From contig PMIJ01000120.1 of NCBI GenBank assembly GCA_003157015.1, positions 1 through 34,855 of the forward strand: 34,855 bases of DNA, in the 5' to 3' direction. A program made the position numbers and the translations under genes. Below, piece after piece: positions 5,344 through 23,898 of this stretch (positions are counted from its first letter, which is position 1; each line of letters starts with the position of its first letter). This stretch comes from Bacteroidales bacterium (GTDB lineage: Bacteria > Bacteroidota > Bacteroidia > Bacteroidales > VadinHA17). The notes under the pieces are model-generated. The model was not told the DNA's origin. It did not search any database and saw only the letters and a program-made list of their open reading frames with translations.

Positions 5344-6576
5344 ATGGTTATTAAAGGACGAGAGTCAAAACCTCATATTGGCATTTATGGACGCCGGAAT
5401 AACGGGAAAAGCAGCCTGATAAACTGCCTTGCCGGGCAGGAAATAGCTATCGTTTCCGACCATGCAGGAACCACGACCGACCCTGTAAAAAAATCCTTCG
5501 AAATCACTGGCTTTGGCCCGGTAATACTTGTTGATACTGCTGGCATAGATGATTCAGGAGATCTTGGCCAGAAAAGAGTTGACCGGACTTTAGAAACTCT
5601 GGAAATCATAGATCTGGCGCTACTTGTAGTTGCAGATAATTCATGGGGAAAAAATGAAGATGATCTCTTAAAGAAATTTAATGATCACGACCTCCCATAT
5701 ATTGTAATTCACAGTAAATCTGACATACAGGAGCCAAAAGCTGAATTTCAACAGAAGATACTTAAATTAACTGGCACTCCGCTATTTGAATTTTCATCTG
5801 CCGATAAGCGAAATTATGAAGAGCTTATAACCCTGATAAGGAACACAATACCTGAACACTCATATAAAACCCCGACATTACTTGGTGATCTTATAAGCTA
5901 TGGAGATATTGTAATTCTGATTACACCAATCGATATAGAAGCCCCTGCCGGCCGGCTTATCCTTCCCCAGATGCAAGCCATAAGAGACATACTTGACAAT
6001 GAAGCTGTTGCAATTGTATTAAAAGAAAGGGAAGTTGACGCATTCCTTAAAAAAACCGGTATCATACCGGCCCTCGCAATTACAGATTCACAAGTGTTCA
6101 TCAAAGCTGATGCATCAATTCCCAGTGATATCCCTCTTACCAGTTTCAGCATAATGCTTGCCAGGTTTAAAGGCGATTTTGATAATTATCTTAAAGGCAC
6201 ACCGAAAATTTCTGGATTAAAAAACGGAGACAGGGTGCTTCTTCTGGAATCCTGTACACATCATGTCTCCTGTGATGATATTGGCAGAACAAAAATTCCC
6301 AGATGGATAACCGGGTTTACAGGAAAGAAAATTGATTATGATGTTGTTGCCGGACTTGATGCCATAACGAGACCAATAACTGATTATTCACTTGTAATAC
6401 AGTGTGGCGGGTGCATGATAACAAGAAAACAACTGCATAACAGGCTTCAGCCGGCAATTAAAGCGGGAGTTCCGGTAACAAATTACGGCATGGCAATAGC
6501 TTATGTTCAAGGTATTTACAATCGGGCAATCGCTCCGTTCATTAAGGATGAAAAATATCTGGATACGTACCTGTAG
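5344..6576 (+). CDS. hydF: [FeFe]-hydrogenase maturation GTPase HydF
   Basis: HydF is the scaffold on which the diiron subcluster made by HydE and HydG is assembled before transfer to the hydrogenase. The 410-residue protein starts with a TrmE-like GTPase domain: P-loop GRRNNGKS (16-23), switch region GTTTDP (42-47), DTAG (64-67) and a diverged G4 motif SKSD (124-127). A dimerisation domain follows, then the C-terminal cluster domain with C304, H306, C354 and C357. The family pattern is C-x-H, a spacer of about 44-53, then H-C-x-x-C; here the second histidine position is Gln353 (QCGGC). The start codon overlaps an upstream TGA and no Shine-Dalgarno is visible, which is normal here. Its presence implies an [FeFe] hydrogenase elsewhere in the genome. 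Confidence 0.95.
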   Translation: MVIKGRESKPHIGIYGRRNNGKSSLINCLAGQEIAIVSDHAGTTTDPVKKSFEITGFGPVILVDTAGIDDSGDLGQKRVDRTLETLEIIDLALLVVADNSWGKNEDDLLKKFNDHDLPYIVIHSKSDIQEPKAEFQQKILKLTGTPLFEFSSADKRNYEELITLIRNTIPEHSYKTPTLLGDLISYGDIVILITPIDIEAPAGRLILPQMQAIRDILDNEAVAIVLKEREVDAFLKKTGIIPALAITDSQVFIKADASIPSDIPLTSFSIMLARFKGDFDNYLKGTPKISGLKNGDRVLLLESCTHHVSCDDIGRTKIPRWITGFTGKKIDYDVVAGLDAITRPITDYSLVIQCGGCMITRKQLHNRLQPAIKAGVPVTNYGMAIAYVQGIYNRAIAPFIKDEKYLDTYL

Positions 6577-6705: not shown

Positions 6706-9690
6706 TTAAAATCTGAAATAAATAAATGGCATTACCTCCGTTGTCCTCATCTGAAACAGAAGAATTGCCACAGCAAAAATAACTGCAAGCTGGGCAATCA
6801 GGGGTATTTCTATAAACAGTCCCCTGTATGACTCTTTGGTCTTTTCCGGCAGAAAATGAATTATATAGCCAACTGCCATTAACAGCAAGGCACTGCTGTA
6901 TGCCGGAAGAACAGTCATATATGATCCCGGCGAAAAATTCTCAAATATCTGTTTTAACATAATCTTCACGCTTTCCAAATCGGGAGCTCTGAAAAATATC
7001 CAGCAGAAGCTTACAAACTGAAAAGTTATAAAGACACCTAATAGCCTTCCGATCCATCTTCTTTTCAGATGTCTTTTAAAAATTGAATCCCATATCTTAT
7101 TAATTACCAGTCCTATGCCATGCAGTCCCCCCCAGATAATATACTTTAATGAGGCACCATGCCATAATCCACCAAGAAGCATAGTTATCATCAGATTGAA
7201 ATATGTACGGATCTTTCCCTTCCTGTTTCCACCCAAAGAGATATATAAATAGTCACGGAGCCATTGAGACAGGGATATATGCCACCTTTTCCAGAAATCA
7301 GTTATGCTTGCTGCCTTGTAGGGCGAGTTAAAATTTACAGGTAATCTGAATCCAAGAATTAATGCAACACCTATGGCAATATCTGTGTAACCCGAAAAAT
7401 CGCAATATATCTGCAATCCATATCCATAAATACCTAGCAGGTTTTCAAATCCTGAATAAATTGAGGGAGCATCAAAAACGCGGTCAACCAGGTTGATGGC
7501 AATAAAATTGGAAATGATTATCTTTTTTATTAACCCTTTGGAAATCATATAAAGAGCATGGCTGAACTCATGCTTTGAAAGCCTGAATTCCTGATAAATC
7601 TGCGGAATAAATACTGATGCTCTTACAATTGGTCCGGCAACCAGGTGCGGAAAGAATGAAACATAAAAGCCGAAATCAATTATGTTCCTGACCGGCTCCA
7701 TTCTTTTCCTGTAAACATCAATTGTATAACTGAGTGACTGAAATGTAAAGAAAGATATACCAACTGGGAGTATTATTGAGCTAACATCAAAATGTGTTCC
7801 CAGGATTGAATTTGAAAAATTTGAAAGCAGATCATAAGCTTTGAATTGAGTGCCTAATAATCCGTTTATTGTGCTGATTATAAATCCTGCATATTTAAAA
7901 TACACTAATAGTCCAAGATTCGAGATTATGCTTAAGAACACAAAAAATCTCTTGACTGTTCCTCTCTTTGATTTAAAAATCAACAAACCACATAGGAAAT
8001 CAACTATTGTTACGAATATCAGGATGAAAAGAAAGAAACCTCCTGCTTTATAATAAAAGAAGAGACTTACCAAAAACAAGTATATATTCCTGAGAACTAA
8101 TTTCTTATATACAAGACTATATCCTGCAAGGACAAAAAGAAAGAAAATCCAGAATGCGGCTGAAGTAAAGATAAAAGGTTTATCAGGACTAAAACTCAAT
8201 AACGAGAACAGAAGAGATTTAACAGGGTCCGTATTCCGGTTTCCTGTCTGGGTTTCGTCTATAACCACCAACGGAGCAAGCGGAACTTTGGCAGGCAGAA
8301 TGCAGGAAATTGACTTTTCCGAAGTATCAAGCCCATGAATCGTAAACATTGAAGATTCAAGCATCTGTGAAAGAGTATCGGCACCGGTATAGGTAAAATG
8401 GATGAAGTCCTTTTGGGCCAAAGGAGGTTTCTTTGCTGCCCATTTAATAATTGAGGATTTTCCTCCCATTGCAAAATATGAATTCCAGAAAGTAACTTCA
8501 GTTTTCAAAGTAGCTTGTTTCTGAGCTTCAATAATGGCAGGAATATTGCTGTACGATTTAATACTATCACCCTCATTTACTGCCATATCTGTCACTCCAA
8601 CTATTAATATTGAAGTGGCTGGCGATATCTCCCTAAGCAGTGAAATCTGCCTTATTAACCCTTTTTGATAATACGAGTAATTGTCTTGTACATTCTTTAC
8701 AATATTCAGACCATATTGCAGAATAAACAGGTCGGGTGCGAGTCTCTTATATGACTCTCTGAGATTATCCCTGTCTACCATGGTAAACTCCAGGCCGGCG
8801 CTTCCCCGCTGGGGTATGTTATCAATAACGATTCCGGTTTCACTCTCTATACTGATACCATATATATCGGGGCTTACTCTTCCTTCAAATTCTATTACAA
8901 TATCTCTCTTCCTGTATAAAGGACATTTTATCTCATTAATACCTGTTCCGGTCTTTAATGAATCTGTAAAAAGTTCAATACCGTTTGATTTAACCGCAAT
9001 TTTTACTGTGCTTAAGGTGTTACCGTAAAATATCCGAAGAAAATCGTAATCAGCTGATGCGCTGTCTGCAACATTTGACGGGCAGATCCTTAAAAAAGCT
9101 TTTTCAGGAGATGCTTTTGTTTCTCCTTCGGGTAAATACCTGCAAATTGCCATGAACGGGCCAAGTATCCGATGGGAAATTTCACCGTTTTTATAAGACA
9201 GGTAATTGTATCTTTTCCAGTTTGATGATGACCGTAACCAAATGGATTTTGTATACATCACCGGCATCAAGGGCAAAAATAATCCCGGCCCTGTACCGCC
9301 CCTGCCTTTTCTTAAAGTATGCCTCAAATAGGAAGTAATCCGGTCTCCTTCGATCTGTGAATCACCATAATAAATTATCCTTACCTGTCGTCTGGAATAT
9401 GTGAGAGAATCAAGAAAGCTTTGCAAAGGATTACCTTCCGGTTTTTCAGGAACAATGCGATTCGGTTTAAATGATTCAAGAGTATCTGCAGATGCAATTT
9501 TAATGCTGTCGGTTAACTTGATTTGCTTCCCGGCATCATTCCATTTTTCTGATTTAAAATTGCTTATAACATCAGGAGGAATAAATTCACCAATTGAAGG
9601 GAAAAACTGATTTGAACGAATTAGATAATGAAGACCGGTAAAACAGGCCAGAAAGATCAGTAATAACAGGAATGACCTTAAAGGGCGCAT
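6706..9690 (-). CDS. SGNH-MBOAT fusion, predicted cell-envelope O-acyltransferase
   Basis: This 994-residue protein joins two activities usually on separate chains. After an N-terminal membrane helix (about 5-24) comes a predicted periplasmic SGNH/GDSL domain (about 85-450) with GDS (109-111, nucleophile S111), GLN (327-329) and D428-F-I-H431, so Ser, Asp and His are all present. Residues 505-990 are a multi-helix MBOAT domain resembling AlgI/PatA, with DFWKRWHISLSQWLRDY (798-814) and the catalytic-type histidine H844 in GGLWHGAS. In two-part systems the MBOAT moves acetyl groups across the membrane and the SGNH partner attaches them to a glycan. The gene starts 14 bp after the lytic transglycosylase stop codon, so peptidoglycan is an attractive acceptor; an exopolysaccharide or lipid is equally possible from sequence. 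Confidence 0.88.
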   Translation of the reverse strand: MRPLRSFLLLLIFLACFTGLHYLIRSNQFFPSIGEFIPPDVISNFKSEKWNDAGKQIKLTDSIKIASADTLESFKPNRIVPEKPEGNPLQSFLDSLTYSRRQVRIIYYGDSQIEGDRITSYLRHTLRKGRGGTGPGLFLPLMPVMYTKSIWLRSSSNWKRYNYLSYKNGEISHRILGPFMAICRYLPEGETKASPEKAFLRICPSNVADSASADYDFLRIFYGNTLSTVKIAVKSNGIELFTDSLKTGTGINEIKCPLYRKRDIVIEFEGRVSPDIYGISIESETGIVIDNIPQRGSAGLEFTMVDRDNLRESYKRLAPDLFILQYGLNIVKNVQDNYSYYQKGLIRQISLLREISPATSILIVGVTDMAVNEGDSIKSYSNIPAIIEAQKQATLKTEVTFWNSYFAMGGKSSIIKWAAKKPPLAQKDFIHFTYTGADTLSQMLESSMFTIHGLDTSEKSISCILPAKVPLAPLVVIDETQTGNRNTDPVKSLLFSLLSFSPDKPFIFTSAAFWIFFLFVLAGYSLVYKKLVLRNIYLFLVSLFFYYKAGGFFLFILIFVTIVDFLCGLLIFKSKRGTVKRFFVFLSIISNLGLLVYFKYAGFIISTINGLLGTQFKAYDLLSNFSNSILGTHFDVSSIILPVGISFFTFQSLSYTIDVYRKRMEPVRNIIDFGFYVSFFPHLVAGPIVRASVFIPQIYQEFRLSKHEFSHALYMISKGLIKKIIISNFIAINLVDRVFDAPSIYSGFENLLGIYGYGLQIYCDFSGYTDIAIGVALILGFRLPVNFNSPYKAASITDFWKRWHISLSQWLRDYLYISLGGNRKGKIRTYFNLMITMLLGGLWHGASLKYIIWGGLHGIGLVINKIWDSIFKRHLKRRWIGRLLGVFITFQFVSFCWIFFRAPDLESVKIMLKQIFENFSPGSYMTVLPAYSSALLLMAVGYIIHFLPEKTKESYRGLFIEIPLIAQLAVIFAVAILLFQMRTTEVMPFIYFRF

Positions 9691-9704
9691 ATTTTAAAAA
9701 AGAA

Positions 9705-11255
9705 TCAACTCTTTTTCTTGATCTTCAACCTCTGCCCAACCTTAATTTTACTTGGATCAGAAATATTATTTAATGAAAGTACCTGCGTTGTTGTAACATT
9801 GTCAAACATTTTAACAATATCCCAGATAGAATCACCTTTGCGAACTGTATAAGTAATATAATCTCCATCAATTTCTCCAGGCCCGATTGTTGTGGCCTGA
9901 GGCTGGGAATTTGTTGGAGCTGTCTTTCCAATTAATGAATGTTTATCAGATAAATCCATAGTATTGATTTTCGAATAATATTCAGATTTGGAAGGATCCA
10001 CGTATACAACCAGCTTTTGACCAACCCGGATATTGTTTCTGTAAATATTATTCCAGTTTCTAAGGTCTGACAATCCGACCTTGTACCACTCGGCTATGAA
10101 TCCAATATTGTCTCCATCCTTTACGGTATAAATTAATTTGGTTTTACCCTTAATATCTGTATTAATATATGTTGATCTGGTAGGATCGGCAATACGCGTT
10201 ACCTTGTTCAAATAAACATCTGGTTTATAATGCCTGATAGTGTCGGTAAGGTCAATGAAATCTCCCAGATGATTCATTGGCAAAGTCAGAGACTGAGGTT
10301 TTGAAGATCCGGGAACTAAACCAGTACGATATTGAGGATTAAGGGCCTGAAGCTCTCCTAAAGGAATATTCATCACTTCAGATATCTGGGCAAGGTGGAT
10401 ATCTTTATTTACCATTATAGTGTCAGTTGCAACAGGTATGTTGAGAGGCAATGGTTGTAGGTTATGTTCCTGATAATAGGTAACAGCATAAGCAGCAGCT
10501 ATATATTGAGGAATGTATCCCCTGGTTTCCCTTGGCAGATTGTAATAGATTTTCCAGTAATCCTTATTATTGCCTGACCGCTTGATTGCTTTATTCACAT
10601 TTCCCGGACCGCAATCATATGCAGCAATGACGAGCACCCAGTCTTTATAAATGTCATAAAGGTCCTTAATGTATCTTGCAGCTGCGTGGGTTGCTTTTAC
10701 CGGATCTTTGCGTTCGTCAACCACAGAATTTATCGTTAGTCCGTACAAACGACCGGTACTATACATGAACTGCCACATCCCGGCCGCACCCGATCGGCCG
10801 TTAACAGCGTTTGGATTTAATGCTGATTCAATGACTGCCATATATTTAAACTCTGCAGGAAGGCCATAGGAATCAAAAACATCTTCAATCATCGGAAAAT
10901 AATAATCTTTCAAACCGAGTACCGCACAGAATTTTTCTCTCTGTCGTATGGTATAAACTTCAATGTGATTACGGATAATATTATTGAAAGGAAGGTTTAT
11001 TACTGAATTAATCTTGCTCAATCTGTGTTCATATACTGTATCAGGAATTTGAAACCCTATTGTATCACCGGGGTTATCGCTTGGTTTGTTTTTAATCGCT
11101 ATTTTAACATACCAGGTATTAACCAGACTATCAAGATCAGCTGCTATTCTTTCGCTGCTATTGTCGGATTTAATGATTATAGTATCGACATCAGATGCAG
11201 CATTTGCTTTTAAACCTACTATGAAGAAAATTATCAGTAATACTCTAAATCTCAT
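9705..11255 (-). CDS. LysM-containing lytic transglycosylase, MltD-like
   Basis: This enzyme is predicted to cleave peptidoglycan between MurNAc and GlcNAc with formation of 1,6-anhydroMurNAc. The 516-residue product has a signal peptide (1-20, ending ANA-AS), an SLT domain at about 120-265 with catalytic E143 in VIESALNPNA, SGAAGMWQFM (155-164) and AAYDCGPGNV (211-220; the usual form is AYNAGPG). LysM-type modules follow at about 285-327 (weak), 374-419 and 467-514. It is 15 bp downstream of the DUF5683 gene and 14 bp upstream of the SGNH-MBOAT gene, so probably in one transcript. Placement outside the cytoplasm, in the periplasm or outer membrane, is inferred from the signal peptide. Confidence 0.93.
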   Translation of the reverse strand: MRFRVLLIIFFIVGLKANAASDVDTIIIKSDNSSERIAADLDSLVNTWYVKIAIKNKPSDNPGDTIGFQIPDTVYEHRLSKINSVINLPFNNIIRNHIEVYTIRQREKFCAVLGLKDYYFPMIEDVFDSYGLPAEFKYMAVIESALNPNAVNGRSGAAGMWQFMYSTGRLYGLTINSVVDERKDPVKATHAAARYIKDLYDIYKDWVLVIAAYDCGPGNVNKAIKRSGNNKDYWKIYYNLPRETRGYIPQYIAAAYAVTYYQEHNLQPLPLNIPVATDTIMVNKDIHLAQISEVMNIPLGELQALNPQYRTGLVPGSSKPQSLTLPMNHLGDFIDLTDTIRHYKPDVYLNKVTRIADPTRSTYINTDIKGKTKLIYTVKDGDNIGFIAEWYKVGLSDLRNWNNIYRNNIRVGQKLVVYVDPSKSEYYSKINTMDLSDKHSLIGKTAPTNSQPQATTIGPGEIDGDYITYTVRKGDSIWDIVKMFDNVTTTQVLSLNNISDPSKIKVGQRLKIKKKS

Positions 11256-11270
11256 ATTTATATAATTAGT

Positions 11271-11912
11271 TTAAAAGTTTATTTTTAAACCCACACTTAC
11301 TCCTGCTCCGGTGAATCCTCCTGGTAATGCCATCTGCACAGGAGCCAGAGTAAGATTAAGATTAGGACTTATATCATAATTAAAAAGGCTGGCATCAACA
11401 TTTGCATCGAGTATCGAAAACAAATACCACCCTGCGATGCCAATATACGAAAGATCTCTATATCTCTTGTAATAATCAACCATTTGTAGCATCTCATTTT
11501 TATATTGAAGATAAATTGAAAGATTATAACCCGTAGGATTAAAAACAGGATCATAGGTATTGCGATCAACACTGGGAGGTATTACTTTAAGGTAGCTGTC
11601 AGTTGTTAAGATATTATCCGTAAAATCCTGATAAGCTTTCATATACATGTTATAACTTTTCCCGTTGAACCCGGCACTATAAATAAGAGCACCAAAACCT
11701 ATATATACAACCGGGATTTTCCAGTATTTTCTGTTGTATATCTGTCCCAGTCCCGGGAATGAAACAGCCATCATTGTTGCTCTGAGGGTCTCGGGTTTAA
11801 ACTTGTGTTTAACCTGACTGGCAACAGCGAGAGTATCCTGCGCTAGCATGCTCTGCTCAATGCAAAACAAAAGCACAATAATTATAATCGGTATTTTATG
11901 AAAAGTCCTCAA
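11271..11912 (-). CDS. DUF5683 family membrane protein
   Basis: This 213-residue protein has a signal-like N-terminus (about 1-24, cleavage near MLAQ-D) and the sequence SFPGLGQIYNRKYWKIPVVY (51-70), which I recognise as the hallmark of DUF5683. The C-terminus is rich in alternating hydrophobic residues and ends in LKINF, reminiscent of envelope beta-strand proteins. In Bacteroidota this family commonly lies between parB and a LysM lytic transglycosylase, exactly as here. No enzymatic motif is visible and the function is unknown; the context points to a cell-envelope role. Confidence 0.85.
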   Translation of the reverse strand: MRTFHKIPIIIIVLLFCIEQSMLAQDTLAVASQVKHKFKPETLRATMMAVSFPGLGQIYNRKYWKIPVVYIGFGALIYSAGFNGKSYNMYMKAYQDFTDNILTTDSYLKVIPPSVDRNTYDPVFNPTGYNLSIYLQYKNEMLQMVDYYKRYRDLSYIGIAGWYLFSILDANVDASLFNYDISPNLNLTLAPVQMALPGGFTGAGVSVGLKINF

Positions 11913-11975
11913 AATAAAAAATTACCGGTCTTTTAATCTAAAACCAGTATAACGGCGCGATAAAGATAATTATTT

Positions 11976-12863
11976 TCAGGAGTTAAGCCGGTCAAATACT
12001 CCTAAAATGCGTTCCATCTCATCGGGGTTTTCAAACGGGATAACTATTTTACCCTTCCCGTTTTCATTTATTCTGAAGTTCACTTTGGCTGAAAATATCT
12101 TATTAAGATGATCAGAAAGCCGGGTAAAATCGTCATTTAGTTTTCGCTTTTTCTCAATCCTCCCGGGATCTTTGCTTTTTTCAGACTGCAATAGTCTTAC
12201 CAGTTCTTCTGCCTGGCGGACAGACAATTCACCATCAATAATTTTATAATAAACACTGATCTGCTTTTTCGGATCCTCAATATTTACAAGTGTTCGTGCA
12301 TGACCCATCATCAGATGCTTATTCTTAATGCCCAGCTGTATTTCGGCAGGCAGTTTCAGCAATCGAAGATAATTTGCCACAGTTGATCTTTGTTTGCCGA
12401 CCCTGTCGCTCAGCTGCTCCTGTGTGAGGTTACATTCCTCTATCAACCGCTGGAAGCTGATTGCAACCTCCACAGCATCGAGATCTTCACGCTGAATGTT
12501 TTCAACCAGCGCGAGTTCAAGCATAGCCTGATCATCGGCTGTTCTGATATAAGCCGGAACATGAGTAATACCGGCCAGACGAGCTGCCCTGAGTCTTCTT
12601 TCTCCGGCAATAAGCTGGTACCGGCCCACACCAACCTCACGAACTGTAAGCGGTTGCACGATGCCGAGTTTCCTGATTGAAACTGATAGTTCTTCAAGAG
12701 CTTGTTCATCGAAGCTTGTCCTGGGCTGAAAAGGGTTGGCTTCTATAGAATCAACAGAGATATCCTGGTTTGCTTCAACTTTTCTCTCAAGGACCTCTTT
12801 CTCCACACCATCTATCAATGCACCAAGACCTCTTCCCAACGCATTTTTCTTTGTCATATTCAT
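11976..12863 (-). CDS. parB: Chromosome partitioning protein ParB
   Basis: ParB loads at parS sites, spreads as a CTP-dependent clamp and works with ParA to separate chromosome origins. The 295-residue product begins with the usual KKNALGRGLGALI peptide, has the N-terminal ParB/Srx-like domain with NPFQPR (43-48) and GERRLRAA (87-94, nucleotide-binding motif), a helix-turn-helix at about 147-171 (LTQEQLSDRVGKQRSTVANY), and a C-terminal dimerisation segment. ATG at 12857 is a possible alternative start (third residue). It lies 30 bp downstream of parA. I looked for a parS-like palindrome (TGTTTCACGTGAAACA type) and did not recognise one in the window. Confidence 0.95.
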   Translation of the reverse strand: MNMTKKNALGRGLGALIDGVEKEVLERKVEANQDISVDSIEANPFQPRTSFDEQALEELSVSIRKLGIVQPLTVREVGVGRYQLIAGERRLRAARLAGITHVPAYIRTADDQAMLELALVENIQREDLDAVEVAISFQRLIEECNLTQEQLSDRVGKQRSTVANYLRLLKLPAEIQLGIKNKHLMMGHARTLVNIEDPKKQISVYYKIIDGELSVRQAEELVRLLQSEKSKDPGRIEKKRKLNDDFTRLSDHLNKIFSAKVNFRINENGKGKIVIPFENPDEMERILGVFDRLNS

Positions 12864-12893: not shown

Positions 12894-13673
12894 TTAATGT
12901 TTTACTCTTGCTTCCTGTTTCTCAATCAACTCTTTGGCCAGATTGAGATAGTTGACCGTACCTCTTGAATCGGCATCATAAAGAATTGCCGGCTGACCAA
13001 AACTAGGCGCTTCAGAGAGTTTAACATTTCTCTGTATTATAGTTTTGAATACCATTTGCTGGAAATGCTTATTCACTTCATCAGATACCTGGTTTGATAA
13101 CCTGAGACGTGAATCATACATTGTAAGAAGAAAACCCTCAATCTCAAGTTCGGGATTAAGATTGTTCTGTATAATTTTAATGGTATTAAGAAGTTTCCCA
13201 AGTCCTTCAAGGGCAAAATATTCACACTGAACAGGTATTATTACCGAATGCGATGCTGTAAGTGCATTAACTGTAAGAAGACCAAGTGAAGGAGAACAGT
13301 CTATTAGAATATAATCATAATCCGGTTCTATTTTTTTAAGCACCTCTTTAAGCGTCTTTTCTCTTTCATACCTGTCAAGCATTTCTATTTCTGCACCTAC
13401 GAGGTCAATATTCGATGGAATAATGAAAAGGTTTTCAACCTCACATTTAAGCAGAGCTTCCCTGGGATCTTTACCATCAATCAGGCAATCATATATTGTA
13501 CATCGTATCTGCCGAGTGTCTATTCCAATGCCTGAAGTAGCATTTGCCTGAGGGTCCCCATCAACAATCAGCACCTTCTTTTCCAGAGCAGCAAGACTGG
13601 CTGCCAGATTTATTGCTGTTGTTGTCTTCCCCACGCCACCCTTCTGATTTGCTATTGCTATAATCCTTCCCAT
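12894..13673 (-). CDS. parA: Chromosome partitioning ATPase ParA (Soj)
   Basis: This Walker-type ATPase of 259 residues binds DNA as an ATP dimer and positions ParB-parS complexes. Seen: the deviant Walker A KGGVGKTT (11-18) with both signature lysines K11 and K16, DGDPQANAT (38-46) and Walker B YILIDCSPSLG (about 120-130). Its length and lack of an N-terminal DNA-binding extension fit chromosomal Soj rather than plasmid ParA. It is the first gene of a minus-strand run parA-parB-DUF5683-lytic transglycosylase-SGNH/MBOAT. Confidence 0.96.
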   Translation of the reverse strand: MGRIIAIANQKGGVGKTTTAINLAASLAALEKKVLIVDGDPQANATSGIGIDTRQIRCTIYDCLIDGKDPREALLKCEVENLFIIPSNIDLVGAEIEMLDRYEREKTLKEVLKKIEPDYDYILIDCSPSLGLLTVNALTASHSVIIPVQCEYFALEGLGKLLNTIKIIQNNLNPELEIEGFLLTMYDSRLRLSNQVSDEVNKHFQQMVFKTIIQRNVKLSEAPSFGQPAILYDADSRGTVNYLNLAKELIEKQEARVKH

Positions 13674-17514: not shown

Positions 17515-17590
17515 TGTTTGACGGCGTCGGGAACAGGCGACAGGCTACTGGAAAAAATTCCTGACGCCAGGTGCCTGAAGCCTGTGGCCC
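17515..17590. repeat. GGCCACAGGC-rich dispersed intergenic repeat, copy 2
   Basis: On the minus strand the cydB stop TAG is followed at once by GGCCACAGGCTTCAGGC, then by CAGGAATTTTTTCC (a small inverted repeat) and CGCCTGTTCCC words. It shares words and position relative to the stop with 2340-2420. It separates cydB from the small ORF at 17367-17480. Confidence 0.6.
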
Positions 17591-18720
17591 TAATATTTAT
17601 GTTCCTCCGAATTCATCTCTGATTCTGTGATTTTCTTATTATTTATAGCTTTCCATGAATACCATACATAGGCTAAAACAAGAGGGATAATAAATGAGAC
17701 ATACATCATAGTCTTCAGTGTAAACAGGCTCGATGAAGCATTGCTGATTGTCAGAGAGCTTTGCAGGTTAAACAGAGACGGATAAAAAGATGTTCCATTA
17801 AACCCGGCTATAAGAAACATTGAGAAAACCGATAGAATAGTACCAGCCCCTGAAAACCATATTCCCGATGAACTTCTTCTGAGCACGGTAATCCCTATGC
17901 CATATAAAACACCTATCACTCCTGCCAGAAAAAGTATAAGGACAAACGGCATCTGAACCAGGTTGTGCAGGTATTTTAGTTTTTCTACCGATATTACACC
18001 TGTAAGTGGATCCGCTGCAAATCCTTTTGATACAAGCAGGGAAATGACGAAAAAAAGGAAGAAGATCAGAAATGGTATAGTATTTACAATTAATGCTTTA
18101 CCTGATCTTTTGATCAATACTTCATCATCGATAGTATTGATAATATATAATAATCCGTTAATTCTAGCAAGAAACAACACGGCGAATCCCAGAGTAAGGT
18201 TCCGTATATTCAGCAGAGCTTCAAGACCGTACCAATGAGTTGCCCAGCGGACCTGATTCATCGGATTGAGAGTAAACATCGCCCCGGTAAAAAAAGTAGC
18301 AACCGCCACTCCAATCAGGAAGGGACCGAGAGATCCATTAAGAAACAGAAACAGGTCGAAGGTTTTTTTCCCAAGAAAATTATTGGGTTTGGATCTGAAT
18401 TCATAAGCTATTGCCTGTATGGTAAAACTGAACAAGATGGCAATCCATACCCAGTATGCACCCCCGAAACTGGTTGAATAAAAAAGTGGGAAGGAGGCAA
18501 AAAAAGCTCCGCCAAATGTTACCAGTGTTGTAAAAGTGAATTCCCATTTTCGACCCATTGTATTTATTATCATTGTCTTATGAATATCATTCGCAGGAAG
18601 CGAATAGAGCATTGATTGTCCTCCCTGTACAAACATCAGGAATACAAGAAGACTGGCCAGGACAGATACAATAATCCACCAGTAGTGTTGCAGAAAAGCT
18701 TGAGAAATAATTGCTGTCAT
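17590..18720 (-). CDS. cydB: Cytochrome bd ubiquinol oxidase subunit II
   Basis: CydB is the second large membrane subunit of the bd-type terminal oxidase, which reduces oxygen to water with quinol electrons. The 376-residue protein has about eight or nine helices; AFFASFPLFYSTSFGGAYW (72-90) and QAIAYEFRSK (102-111) match the CydB family. Where E. coli CydB has a DGFDxG motif near the first helix, this protein reads VQGGQSML (31-38), so it belongs to a divergent branch. Translation starts 12 bp after cydA behind an AGGAGG Shine-Dalgarno that overlaps the cydA stop. This is unusual in an otherwise SD-poor window. Confidence 0.94.
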   Translation of the reverse strand: MTAIISQAFLQHYWWIIVSVLASLLVFLMFVQGGQSMLYSLPANDIHKTMIINTMGRKWEFTFTTLVTFGGAFFASFPLFYSTSFGGAYWVWIAILFSFTIQAIAYEFRSKPNNFLGKKTFDLFLFLNGSLGPFLIGVAVATFFTGAMFTLNPMNQVRWATHWYGLEALLNIRNLTLGFAVLFLARINGLLYIINTIDDEVLIKRSGKALIVNTIPFLIFFLFFVISLLVSKGFAADPLTGVISVEKLKYLHNLVQMPFVLILFLAGVIGVLYGIGITVLRRSSSGIWFSGAGTILSVFSMFLIAGFNGTSFYPSLFNLQSSLTISNASSSLFTLKTMMYVSFIIPLVLAYVWYSWKAINNKKITESEMNSEEHKY

Positions 18721-18728
18721 ATATTTGT

Positions 18729-18734
18729 CCTCCT
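18729..18734 (-). promoter_or_regulatory. Strong Shine-Dalgarno of cydB
   Basis: The minus strand reads AGGAGG, 8 nt before the cydB ATG, and its first two bases (AG) are also part of the cydA stop codon TAG. The 12-nt word TAGGAGGACAAA is shared exactly with the hsp20 leader. Most other genes here have no recognisable SD, so cydB may be translated more efficiently or coupled to cydA. Confidence 0.75.
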
Positions 18735-20289
18735 AATGTTTGGGGCCTGTTTTAATCTGTTTTACCATAATTGAAACCTCTGAAATAAACAATCCTGTAA
18801 ACAGAACAGCAAATAGAATGAAAGTAGTGATCACTGATCCTGTACTGATCTGGGAAACAGCTCTTGTTACTGTCATCAAGTCCTGAATTATCCATGGCTG
18901 CCGGCCTAATTCAGTAAGTAACCAACCAAGCTCGCTTGCAATGTATGGCAGAGGAATTGAGAATAGTGCTATCCACAAAAACCATTTATTATCTGAAATG
19001 GTTCCTTTAAAGAGGAGGTATAGCGCCACTGAAAAAATCAAAATGAAGAGGAATCCGAGAATAACCATCAGGTGAAAAGAATAGAATGAGGCAGTCACAT
19101 TCGGGATAACATCATCAGGTTTCTCAACGGAAGCATAACCGAAATATCTGAAATATCTGTTTTGAAATTCATTATCGTTAAAAACCGTTTTTATAGAACT
19201 AATCAAAGCTGTATCATTATTATACCTGGCCTTTTTATAAGATGTCAAAACGGTCATTGCATATTTACCTCTCAGTATTTTTTCTGAGGCTGAGGTAATC
19301 TGAAGCTTTTCATTCCCTAAAATATGATCTCTGAGTCCCTGAACATATGCATTCCTATCACCTCCTGTAAGAACTGAAAGCAAACCGGGTATCTGGATCT
19401 TAAAGGCAAATTCCTTTTCAGTTTTATCTCCTATTTTTTTATCAGTATCTTTCAGAACACCAAAAGCTATTAATCCGGCATTATTTTTACCTTCATAAAG
19501 AGCTTCCATAGACGCAAATTTAACAGGCTGAACCTTTGATACGGTTCTGGTAGATTGATCTCCGGTATAGGCGACCATTAAGGAAGATAAAAGGCCGAAT
19601 ACCCCTGCAACCAAAATGCTCTTTTTTGCTATTTGCTCTTCCCTGTTTCTTATCAGATACCATGCGCTGATTCCAAGTACGAACATAGATGCAAGCAAAA
19701 AACCTGATGAAATAGTGTGCAAGAATTTATCGACTGCTACCTGATTAAAGAGAACTGCCCAAAAATTAACCATTTCATTTCGTGCTGTCTCAGGATTGAA
19801 CACCATACCAACAGGATGTTGCATCCAGGCATTTGCAACCAGGATCCAGAGCGCCGAGAGATTGGCTCCGACAGCTACCATCCATGTTGAAACCAGGTGA
19901 AATTTTTTACTCACTTTATTCCACCCGAAAAACATAACTGCAACGAATGTCGATTCGAGGAAGAATGCCAGTATCCCTTCTACTGCAAGGGGAGCACCAA
20001 AAATATCACCAACAAACCATGAATAATTCGACCAGTTTGTGCCAAACTCAAACTCAAGAATAATACCTGTTGCAATACCTATTGCGAAGTTTATTCCGAA
20101 AAGAGTCATCCAGAACCGGGTTATACGTCGCCATTCTTCATTACCCGTTTTAACGTATATAGTCTCCATTATGGCGAGGATGAAAGACAATCCCAATGTG
20201 AGTGGCACAAATAGCCAGTGGTAAGCTGCTGTCAGGGCAAACTGAGCTCTTGACCAGTCTACAAGACTCAAATCAATTTTGTCAATCAT
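18733..20289 (-). CDS. cydA: Cytochrome bd ubiquinol oxidase subunit I
   Basis: CydA carries the hemes and quinol site of the bd oxidase. In the 518-residue protein the conserved positions are offset by 5 from E. coli: H24 (equivalent of heme ligand H19), E104 and E112 (E99/E107, in PLAVEGILAFFLEST), H191 (H186, in LHTISSGF), and K257 and E262 in the quinol-binding Q loop (KVQPVKFASMEALYE). GRQPW is present near residue 460. An extended hydrophilic segment of about 100 residues follows the Q-loop start (about 263-370, with KNNAGLIAFG and many Lys/Asp). The gene lies between DUF4492 (8-nt overlap) and cydB. Confidence 0.97.
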   Translation of the reverse strand: MIDKIDLSLVDWSRAQFALTAAYHWLFVPLTLGLSFILAIMETIYVKTGNEEWRRITRFWMTLFGINFAIGIATGIILEFEFGTNWSNYSWFVGDIFGAPLAVEGILAFFLESTFVAVMFFGWNKVSKKFHLVSTWMVAVGANLSALWILVANAWMQHPVGMVFNPETARNEMVNFWAVLFNQVAVDKFLHTISSGFLLASMFVLGISAWYLIRNREEQIAKKSILVAGVFGLLSSLMVAYTGDQSTRTVSKVQPVKFASMEALYEGKNNAGLIAFGVLKDTDKKIGDKTEKEFAFKIQIPGLLSVLTGGDRNAYVQGLRDHILGNEKLQITSASEKILRGKYAMTVLTSYKKARYNNDTALISSIKTVFNDNEFQNRYFRYFGYASVEKPDDVIPNVTASFYSFHLMVILGFLFILIFSVALYLLFKGTISDNKWFLWIALFSIPLPYIASELGWLLTELGRQPWIIQDLMTVTRAVSQISTGSVITTFILFAVLFTGLFISEVSIMVKQIKTGPKH

Positions 20290-22642: not shown

Positions 22643-22671
22643 AAAAATCCCGGTTAATTACCGGGATTTTT
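22643..22671. terminator. Bidirectional intrinsic terminator between hsp20 and the flavoprotein gene
   Basis: A perfect stem, AAAAATCCCGG (22643-22653) and CCGGGATTTTT (22661-22671), encloses a 7-nt TTAATTA loop. A-tract and T-tract flank it on both sides, so it should terminate both converging transcripts. The flavoprotein stop codon (22656-22654) lies in the loop and its last codons lie in one arm. Confidence 0.9.
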
Positions 22672-23898
22672 CACATGTCCGCATTCCTGAATATATCTCT
22701 GACTAAAGTTTCTTCCGAATTCTCTTAAATATTCTTTCTTGTTATTATCGGGAGAAAACTTAAAAGCAGCAGTTTCTTCAAATATTTTAAGCTTCAGAAG
22801 CCGCAGGTTTTCCAGTATAAGATTTGGCGACTCCCCGCTCCAGCCATATGAACCGAAAGCGCCTCCTAACTTACCCTTGTCACGTATCGGATTTATCAGG
22901 GCGAATAACCTGTACACGGGAAGCAATGTATTCTGATTGATTGTAGGTGAACCTATTATCAACCCGTCTGACTTTATCAGCTTTGATTCGAGTTCTTCAA
23001 GAGCAATATTTTCAATATCTGTAATATCGACTGTAATACCTTCGGTCTCCTGAATCCCTTCGGCAATAATATGGGCTGCTTCTTTTGTATAGCCATAGGC
23101 CGAAACATATGCTATCAGAATATTCATCTGATTTTTTTCAGATATGACCTTCATATATTCCTCAGCAAACTTTTCCGAGAGCTCTATGGCTTTCCTTAAA
23201 TTATTTTTATGTATTGGACCATGACCAGGGCAGATATATTCAAGTTCAAGAGGTTTTACCTTTTCAATGGCTTTCAGAATGAACCTGCTGAACGGTCTCA
23301 TTATGACATCGAAGTAGTATTTAAAAGATTTTGTATACTGTTCGTCGAAATTGCTGAACATCTCAGAAGAACAATAATGAGCTCCAAAAACATCGCATGT
23401 GAATAAAACCTTATCCTCCACAAGCAGTGTTAACATCGAATCGGGCCAATGCAGGTTTGGGGCAGAAAAAAACCTGAGTGTTTTATTCCCCAGATCTAGT
23501 GTATCACCATCCTTTACCACACGGGATTTAAATGGAATATTCACAATATCCTCAAGGTATCTGATAGCATTACCACTGCCGACAACAGTTGCTGAAGGTG
23601 CCAGGTCCAAAAGGAGCCTGAGACTTCCTGAATGATCAGGCTCAGTATGATTGAGAACAATGTACTCGATCTCCCGGGGATCAGTAACTGATCTTAATTT
23701 TTGAAGGTACGGTTCACTGAATTTTTCTTTGGCAACTTCAATTATTGCTTTTTTCCCTGCATTAATAAAATACGAGTTATAAGTCGTTCCAAAATCAGTG
23801 CTCATCACTATATCAAAGGTCCTGATTTCATAATCAAGTATCCCTATCCACTTTACATCGTCCGTAACATCAATTATTTTATCATCAGCCCTTGTCAT
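22654..23898 (-). CDS. FprA family A-type flavoprotein (diiron oxygen/NO reductase)
   Basis: The 414-residue protein joins a metallo-beta-lactamase-fold diiron domain (about 1-250) to a flavodoxin domain (about 258-400). Iron ligands are visible: H84-x-E86-x-D88 in NHTEPDHSG, H150 in APNLHWPDS, D169 in CDVFGAH and H226 in CPGHGPIH. The FMN domain has YVSAYGYTKEAA (264-275) and GSPTINQNTLLPVY (316-329). Such flavodiiron proteins reduce oxygen to water or NO to N2O, with electrons from rubredoxin or F420; no rubredoxin domain is fused here. The choice between oxygen and NO cannot be made from sequence alone. It lies 13 bp after psd and is probably the last gene of that operon. Confidence 0.93.
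   Translation of the reverse strand: MTRADDKIIDVTDDVKWIGILDYEIRTFDIVMSTDFGTTYNSYFINAGKKAIIEVAKEKFSEPYLQKLRSVTDPREIEYIVLNHTEPDHSGSLRLLLDLAPSATVVGSGNAIRYLEDIVNIPFKSRVVKDGDTLDLGNKTLRFFSAPNLHWPDSMLTLLVEDKVLFTCDVFGAHYCSSEMFSNFDEQYTKSFKYYFDVIMRPFSRFILKAIEKVKPLELEYICPGHGPIHKNNLRKAIELSEKFAEEYMKVISEKNQMNILIAYVSAYGYTKEAAHIIAEGIQETEGITVDITDIENIALEELESKLIKSDGLIIGSPTINQNTLLPVYRLFALINPIRDKGKLGGAFGSYGWSGESPNLILENLRLLKLKIFEETAAFKFSPDNNKKEYLREFGRNFSQRYIQECGHVKNPGN

Follow-up and report, generated by a model that had tools for sequence, protein, structure and literature searches.

An uninterrupted reading frame joining an Ape1-like SGNH domain to an MBOAT acyltransferase in Bacteroidales: a candidate single-chain peptidoglycan O-acetyltransferase

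The window analysed here, i.e. the whole stretch of 34,855 nucleotides (nt), is one of the 238 contigs (PMIJ01000120.1) in a 5.2-Mb metagenome-assembled genome of a Bacteroidales bacterium. It encodes a protein of 994 residues in which an N-terminal anchor, an SGNH domain and an MBOAT domain follow each other, in this order, within one open reading frame (ORF). As the original prediction for this DNA had it, the catalytic residues Ser111, Asp428 and His431 are intact in a single chain, on which the ORF, the domain scans and the predicted structure agree, and the gene lies 14 nt behind that of a lytic transglycosylase (LT; Table 1). The conserved context is wider than this pair and reads ParA-ParB-DUF5683-LT-fusion. 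In relatives in which the two halves are separate genes, the SGNH protein that corresponds to the fused domain is denoted SGNH1 and a second, separate one SGNH2.

Table 1 Features of the fused gene and its conserved neighbourhood.
Feature	Position	Strand	Basis
Fused SGNH(Ape1-like)-MBOAT(PatA/DltB-like) protein, 994 aa	6706..9690	-	ORF, domain scans, alignment, predicted structure
N-terminal membrane-anchor helix, residues 3-23	9622..9684	-	Predicted helix; membrane-spanning read from hydrophobic sequence
Ape1-like SGNH domain, blocks I and II separated by a beta-rich insert, residues 86-453	8332..9435	-	VIA-align and profile match
Ser111, predicted nucleophile, block I GDSQ	9358..9360	-	Invariant in 18/18 fused and 132/132 SGNH1
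Arg295-Gly296, block II	8803..8808	-	Arg295 in 131/132 SGNH1; Asn in 78/78 SGNH2; Gly in all 210
Asn329, block III oxyanion residue	8704..8706	-	Invariant
Asp428-x-x-His431, block V	8398..8409	-	Both invariant in all 132 SGNH1
Inter-domain linker, residues 454-488	8227..8331	-	pLDDT <50 at residues 453-486
MBOAT domain, residues 489-994	6709..8226	-	PF03062; DltB 8jem Z 24.9 (VIA-align)
His844, predicted MBOAT catalytic histidine (GLWHG)	7159..7161	-	WHG in 173/173 distinct MBOATs; role by analogy with PatA His315 (PMC12148441)
C-terminal FIYFRF, candidate acyl-shuttle hexapeptide FXYXXF with Tyr991	6709..6726	-	Motif and role from PMC12148441
MltD-like LT, SLT and 2 LysM domains, 516 aa	9705..11255	-	ORF and domain scans
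Gap from LT stop to fusion start, 14 nt	9691..9704	-	ORF coordinates
DUF5683 protein, conserved neighbour	11271..11912	-	Domain scan, relatives' loci
ParB, conserved neighbour	11976..12863	-	Domain scan, relatives' loci
ParA, conserved neighbour	12894..13673	-	Domain scan, relatives' loci

The predicted structure of the chain has a mean predicted local distance difference test score (pLDDT) of 83.6 and a predicted template modelling score (pTM) of 0.58, with a low-confidence (low-pLDDT) linker behind the anchor helix (residues 48-85) besides the one between the domains. Across the aligned fused proteins, Ser111, Asn329, Asp428, His431, His844 and the terminal FIYFRF are all invariant (18/18). 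A search of the window's own genome found one MBOAT.

When the fused protein is scanned with Pfam, the MBOAT half alone passes; the SGNH half matches PF13472 (residues 76-481) with E = 0.001 and 20 bits, below the cut-off of 32.9 bits, so that Pfam-based automatic annotation would label the gene a plain MBOAT. In structural comparisons with VIA-align, residues 86-453 of the model match 4k3u, a structure entitled "Peptidoglycan O-acetylesterase in action", with Z = 36.4 (333 aligned residues of the 350-residue structure, root-mean-square deviation 2.7 Å), and Campylobacter Ape1 (8gkd) with Z = 32.7, whereas PatB (8tlb) gives Z = 15.9 over 184 aligned residues. The module that Ape1 carries between blocks I and II is present, with strands at residues 150-293. 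Similarly, profiles based on SGNH1 and SGNH2 retrieve 4k3u (E = 8.4e-32 and 2.3e-40, respectively), PatB sequences match neither profile at E = 1, and the window's SGNH domain has no match to DUF459, the PatB family, at E = 0.1. Block II has Gly296 (Gly in 132/132 SGNH1) in place of the Ser or Asn that marks transferases such as PatB (PMC12148441). The window's GDSQ and DFIH also depart from the motifs I, GDS(H/F), and VII, Dx(V/T)H, given for Ape1 (PMC1199599). Thus, a PatB-like identity of the SGNH half is ruled out by fold, family model and block II, and the predicted structure points to the fold of Ape1, a peptidoglycan O-acetylesterase; because the likeness extends to the insert, peptidoglycan is the probable substrate.

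The MBOAT half matches PF03062 with E = 2.6e-30 and the DltB equivalog model TIGR04091 with E = 1.3e-49 (169.5 bits, not reaching the cut-off of 375); no carrier-protein gene was seen among the ten window proteins scanned. An OatA-type identity was rejected, the membrane half being MBOAT and not AT3. Where the central motif of PatA reads F-W-R/N-R-W-H (PMC1199599), the window has FWKRWH (residues 799-804), with Lys in the third place. The C-terminal FXYXXF is present in 161/173 distinct MBOATs, i.e. 43/43 fused and 118/130 split, and the remaining 12 split proteins end in PIYLQF, which keeps the shuttle Tyr and replaces the first Phe with Pro (L020, L022-L027 and L029-L031, family f19; L063; L101). 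In PatA, the Tyr of this hexapeptide is auto-acetylated, and an acetyl-Tyr peptide serves PatB as the acetyl donor (PMC12148441).

The related-loci set (80 of 571 relatives kept) contains 25 fused loci, and the unfused relatives mostly have SGNH1-SGNH2-MBOAT or SGNH1-MBOAT gene sets, in the order SGNH1, optional SGNH2, MBOAT at most split loci and SGNH1-MBOAT-SGNH2 in family f19. These split relatives we take to be the O-acetyl-peptidoglycan (OAP) clusters described in 2005 for Bacteroides and Porphyromonas, in which ape1b comes first, followed by ape1c and pat (PMC1199599), an equation made by gene order and family. In the window, too, the ape1b counterpart lies upstream of that of pat, the adjacent SGNH and MBOAT parts being fused. 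In B. fragilis, peptidoglycan O-acetylation amounts to 69.4% relative to muramic acid, and the figure for B. thetaiotaomicron is 27.0% (PMC1199599, Table 1); among the papers screened, that one is the single source of the term ape1b.

Active sites were compared over 210 distinct sequences, 132 SGNH1 and 78 SGNH2, obtained from 244 after removal of identical copies (L002, L212, L213, L214, L217 and L219, being duplicate or truncated, and ORFs of fewer than 300 residues were left out). In SGNH2, the catalytic Ser is followed by His, the block II Gly is preceded by Asn and the block III Asn is followed by Asp or Glu (78/78 each), and the alignments show the same three neighbours in both solved Ape1 proteins. 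In SGNH1, by contrast, His after Ser occurs in 0/132 (Phe in 3), Arg precedes the block II Gly in 131/132, and Asp or Glu after the block III Asn occurs in 0/132.

The two proteins also differ in occurrence. Among phylum genomes with a strong MBOAT match, SGNH1 was found in 73/74 and SGNH2 in 42/74 (the threshold of 1e-95 was set after viewing the lists; at 1e-85, the SGNH1 count is 73/82). SGNH2 was counted only where it was separate from the SGNH1 place and had E below about 1e-30, as judged by eye (45 genomes); none of these 45 lacks SGNH1, and all genomes with SGNH1 have an MBOAT match (78/78). At most 2, 4 or 18 candidates per genome were scored, depending on the search, so that absence is weaker than presence in these counts. 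Where the MBOAT locus showed no SGNH1, the genome proved to hold one either at another place or outside the stretch initially read (16/16); on this result, the idea that SGNH1 and SGNH2 are interchangeable, which loci with SGNH2 and MBOAT only had raised, was dropped. As PMC1199599 lists no PatB (ape2) in these clusters, one of the SGNH proteins is expected to be the transferase. From the active-site neighbours of SGNH1, its near-obligate pairing with MBOAT and its recovery in all 16 of those genomes, we infer that SGNH1 is the transferase, in the place of PatB, and that SGNH2 is the esterase, lost in the lineage of the window.

Several observations weigh against this assignment. The solved structures nearest to the SGNH half are esterases, and the Gly296 kept in block II is hydrolase-like; a transferase that retains the block II Gly is known, namely SaOatA (PMC9487903). 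In G239, one of the genomes searched, a strong MBOAT is unaccompanied by any SGNH1 match. The DUF459/PatB model is nearer to SGNH2 than to SGNH1, the SGNH2 of locus L068 showing a weak match to it (23.8 bits against a cut-off of 27.2, E = 3.2e-5). A DUF459 match is also present in the control genome of Bacteroides ihuae, so that Bacteroides may possess a PatB-like protein encoded away from the cluster. According to PMC1199599, Ape1c has no insert after motif I, yet at this position the SGNH2 of the present loci carries a segment of comparable length; the Bacteroides clusters are linked to these loci by gene order and family. The literature searched yielded no chemistry on any SGNH1 and no enzyme or mutant of this type.

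Some of these points would fit an alternative in which the fused SGNH domain is an Ape1 esterase: a PatA-like acetyl exporter would then be joined to a de-acetylase removing acetyl groups close to the membrane, and transfer would fall to another SGNH protein elsewhere in the genome. The clear lead of the Ape1 fold among the structural matches, the retained block II Gly and the affinity of SGNH2 to the DUF459 model would all agree with this, and the genome does hold other GDSL-type candidates (39 at first look, 18 of them scored). However, the window's genome has no DUF459/PatB match, the active site of SGNH1 lacks the three neighbours common to SGNH2 and the two solved Ape1 proteins, and SGNH1 is the near-obligate partner of the MBOAT whereas SGNH2 is dispensable; to couple an exporter to an esterase in a single protein would presumably be futile if no transferase were conserved alongside. 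Thus, we consider the esterase alternative unlikely. In the same genome, no second Ape1-like match was found among the 18 of 39 candidates scored, and no AT3 match exceeded the cut-off (two fell below it).

For each of 50 distinct fused proteins (50/50, counting that of the window), an LT ORF lies upstream on the same strand, with gaps of 7-142 nt (exactly 14 nt in 30/50), which argues that the adjacency is not due to chance. Given gaps of 15 nt between DUF5683 and LT and 14 nt between LT and the fusion, the three genes are probably co-transcribed. Between ParB and DUF5683, a terminator-like hairpin (10 pairs and a T tail, minus strand, 11923-11949) is present, so that DUF5683-LT-fusion may form a separate transcript. 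Window-wide, terminator-like sites number 9 (shuffled mean 6.1, standard deviation (sd) 2.3) and promoter-like sites 37 (shuffled mean 24.9, sd 4.7), counts that were not used as evidence.

The LT gene is, however, retained in all seven informative genomes of the same genus that have no fusion, where it directly precedes the next convergent gene, a pattern that counts against an obligatory coupling (G602, whose locus ends at a contig edge, was excluded). No Ape1-like match is left in these seven; both halves are gone together and LT stays. Among 64 split loci that could be judged, 20 have an adjacent LT and 44 do not, the latter meaning that no ORF resembling the window's LT (phmmer, E = 1e-3) lies close upstream, other LT families not having been sought; six more loci could not be judged. 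Because the split gene sets of many Bacteroidales also stand at the end of ParA-ParB-DUF5683-LT, linkage to LT is independent of the fusion; mapped on the MBOAT tree, where L177 and L178, with LT upstream at a wider gap, were assigned it by hand, the LT label requires nine changes. Thus, LT as an obligatory partner is ruled out, by the seven fusion-less genomes as well as by the 44/64 split loci; the adjacency is constant in fused loci, and the link is conserved but not obligatory.

The same counts are compatible with another explanation, namely that a different envelope glycan (lipopolysaccharide, capsule or a periplasmic glycan) is acylated and that the position beside LT is inherited rather than functional. 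Alginate, cellulose and secondary wall polymers are likewise acylated by MBOAT-SGNH pairs (PMC12148441), and some loci not linked to an LT have glycoside-hydrolase-family or YfhO neighbours. At 17 such unlinked loci, 20 of the 105 listed neighbour proteins were scanned, one or two genes per locus; these are mixed (serine dehydratase, panB, glutamyl-tRNA synthetase, TPR and surface proteins, three glycoside-hydrolase-family proteins, i.e. GH115, GH63-like and GHL10, and one YfhO membrane protein) and include no polysaccharide-synthesis cluster. The exopolysaccharide locus, which the original prediction had named as the outcome that would speak against it, was thus not seen in this limited check. 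Together with the Ape1 type of the SGNH domain and the published peptidoglycan O-acetylation of Bacteroides with the matching cluster, this makes a different glycan distinctly improbable.

A single ORF, read from the DNA in each case, spans both halves in 56/98 genomes of the family sample (G577, on whose frame two analyses disagree, is outside the 56), and no fusion besides the window's own was confirmed in the phylum sample of 395 genomes, in which not every match was read. The frames of nearly 1000 listed for the split genes of G180, G263 and G280 are separate ORFs, and that column was not used. In the MBOAT tree (109 rows, after 9/118 near-copies and MBOAT domains of fewer than 380 residues were dropped), the 27 fused rows form one clade (SH-aLRT 99) with one fused/split change, and one contig-edge fragment falls inside it. 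Secondary gene fission in L171, the sole apparent split in this clade, was ruled out, the interruption being an assembly gap of N. Thus, the fused ORF is real and lineage-wide, within a known kind of system: adjacent split genes do occur in the same family, but with an uninterrupted ORF in 56 family genomes, one clade and the L171 split explained by the gap, the probability that read-through or a sequencing error joined two genes is negligible.

Other arrangements were seen among the relatives. L209 (G031) and L019 (G124) have tandem MBOAT paralogues of this type, both behind one SGNH1 in L209. Several Ape1-like SGNH copies stand side by side at G373:C3:138497-144973, where they adjoin an MBOAT, and at G184:C1:370942-375114, one copy lying in a 734-codon open frame. 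In Capnocytophaga (L071, L103, L107), no SGNH was found beside the MBOAT in the stretch examined and SGNH1 lies elsewhere in the genome; here, the gene set seems to be broken up. Elsewhere in the window, a flavodiiron-type protein (ODP beta-lactamase and flavodoxin, 22654-23898), a cytochrome bd oxidase pair (17590-20289) and HydF (5344-6576) are encoded, suggestive of an anaerobic organism protected against oxygen.

Of the functions considered for this locus, peptidoglycan O-acetylation has the best support, and the candidate system of the original prediction is upheld in this respect by the Ape1-like SGNH, the shuttle motif and the match of the split form to the Bacteroides OAP cluster with O-acetylated peptidoglycan; the Ape1-like half as an acetyltransferase is the new part. 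We lean towards the view that the protein is a peptidoglycan O-acetyltransferase in a single chain, the OAP system of Bacteroidota in fused form, with SGNH1 as the transferase. In this scheme, the MBOAT half would move acetyl from cytoplasmic acetyl-CoA to Tyr991 of the C-terminal FIYFRF, with His844 assisting, and the acetyl-Tyr would be offered at the periplasmic side to the tethered SGNH1 domain. The latter, an Ape1-family fold turned transferase and doing the job of PatB, would accept the acetyl on Ser111 and pass it to O-6 of N-acetylmuramic acid (MurNAc), the separate esterase-like SGNH2 with the Ape1 signature presumably having disappeared from this lineage. Since MurNAc that carries the O-acetyl group would be resistant to the neighbouring LT, the pair could set wall turnover.

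Bacterial polymer acylation has been grouped into systems with an MBOAT and a separate SGNH protein and those with a fused AT3-SGNH (PMC12148441, 2025). Because the unfused relatives are equated with the OAP clusters of Bacteroides, which includes species with measured O-acetylated peptidoglycan, we regard the present protein as a new single-chain form of a known kind of system; of the suggestion that the arrangement was undescribed, the fusion survives, no description of a single-chain MBOAT-SGNH protein having been found in the literature searched, whereas the gene set itself is not new. The ape1b-ape1c-patA cluster shares the families, the order at most split loci and the lack of a listed ape2 (PatB; PMC1199599). 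It differs in that its genes are separate, whereas here SGNH1 and MBOAT form one chain, SGNH2 is lost and the LT gene lies directly upstream; moreover, the 2005 paper names both SGNH proteins esterases, and here the first is argued to be a transferase. With PatA/PatB (PMC12148441), the system shares the conserved His of the MBOAT, the C-terminal FXYXXF and an anchored periplasmic SGNH partner, but PatB belongs to DUF459 (PMC9487903) and has Ser in block II, whereas here an Ape1 fold with its insert and a block II Gly is fused to the MBOAT. Ape1 itself (4k3u, 8gkd) has the entire SGNH fold, including the inserted module; SGNH1 differs from it in the residues after Ser, before the block II Gly and after the block III Asn, and in its fusion to an MBOAT. 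OatA (AT3-SGNH) likewise joins a membrane acyltransferase and an SGNH domain on one chain for peptidoglycan O-acetylation, but there the domains come in the opposite order, and the membrane fold of AT3 is unrelated to that of MBOAT. DltB/DltX/DltD resembles the present system in the MBOAT fold, the Tyr hexapeptide and an SGNH acceptor, whereas Dlt uses a D-alanyl carrier protein and the separate microprotein DltX and acts on Gram-positive teichoic acids. A natural MBOAT-SGNH fusion adds a third layout and offers a ready-made model of the acyl relay within one protein, and it marks which Ape1-like protein of the Bacteroidota OAP clusters partners PatA, a point left open in 2005. By a slight balance of probability, Bacteroidota use a third class of peptidoglycan O-acetyltransferase, built on the Ape1-fold SGNH1, of which the fused protein would be a one-chain relay from CoA via Tyr991 and Ser111 to MurNAc, the MBOAT counterpart of OatA. 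If SGNH1 is indeed the transferase, the name Ape1b describes the reverse of what these proteins do, in gut species whose O-acetylation reaches 69% relative to muramic acid (PMC1199599).

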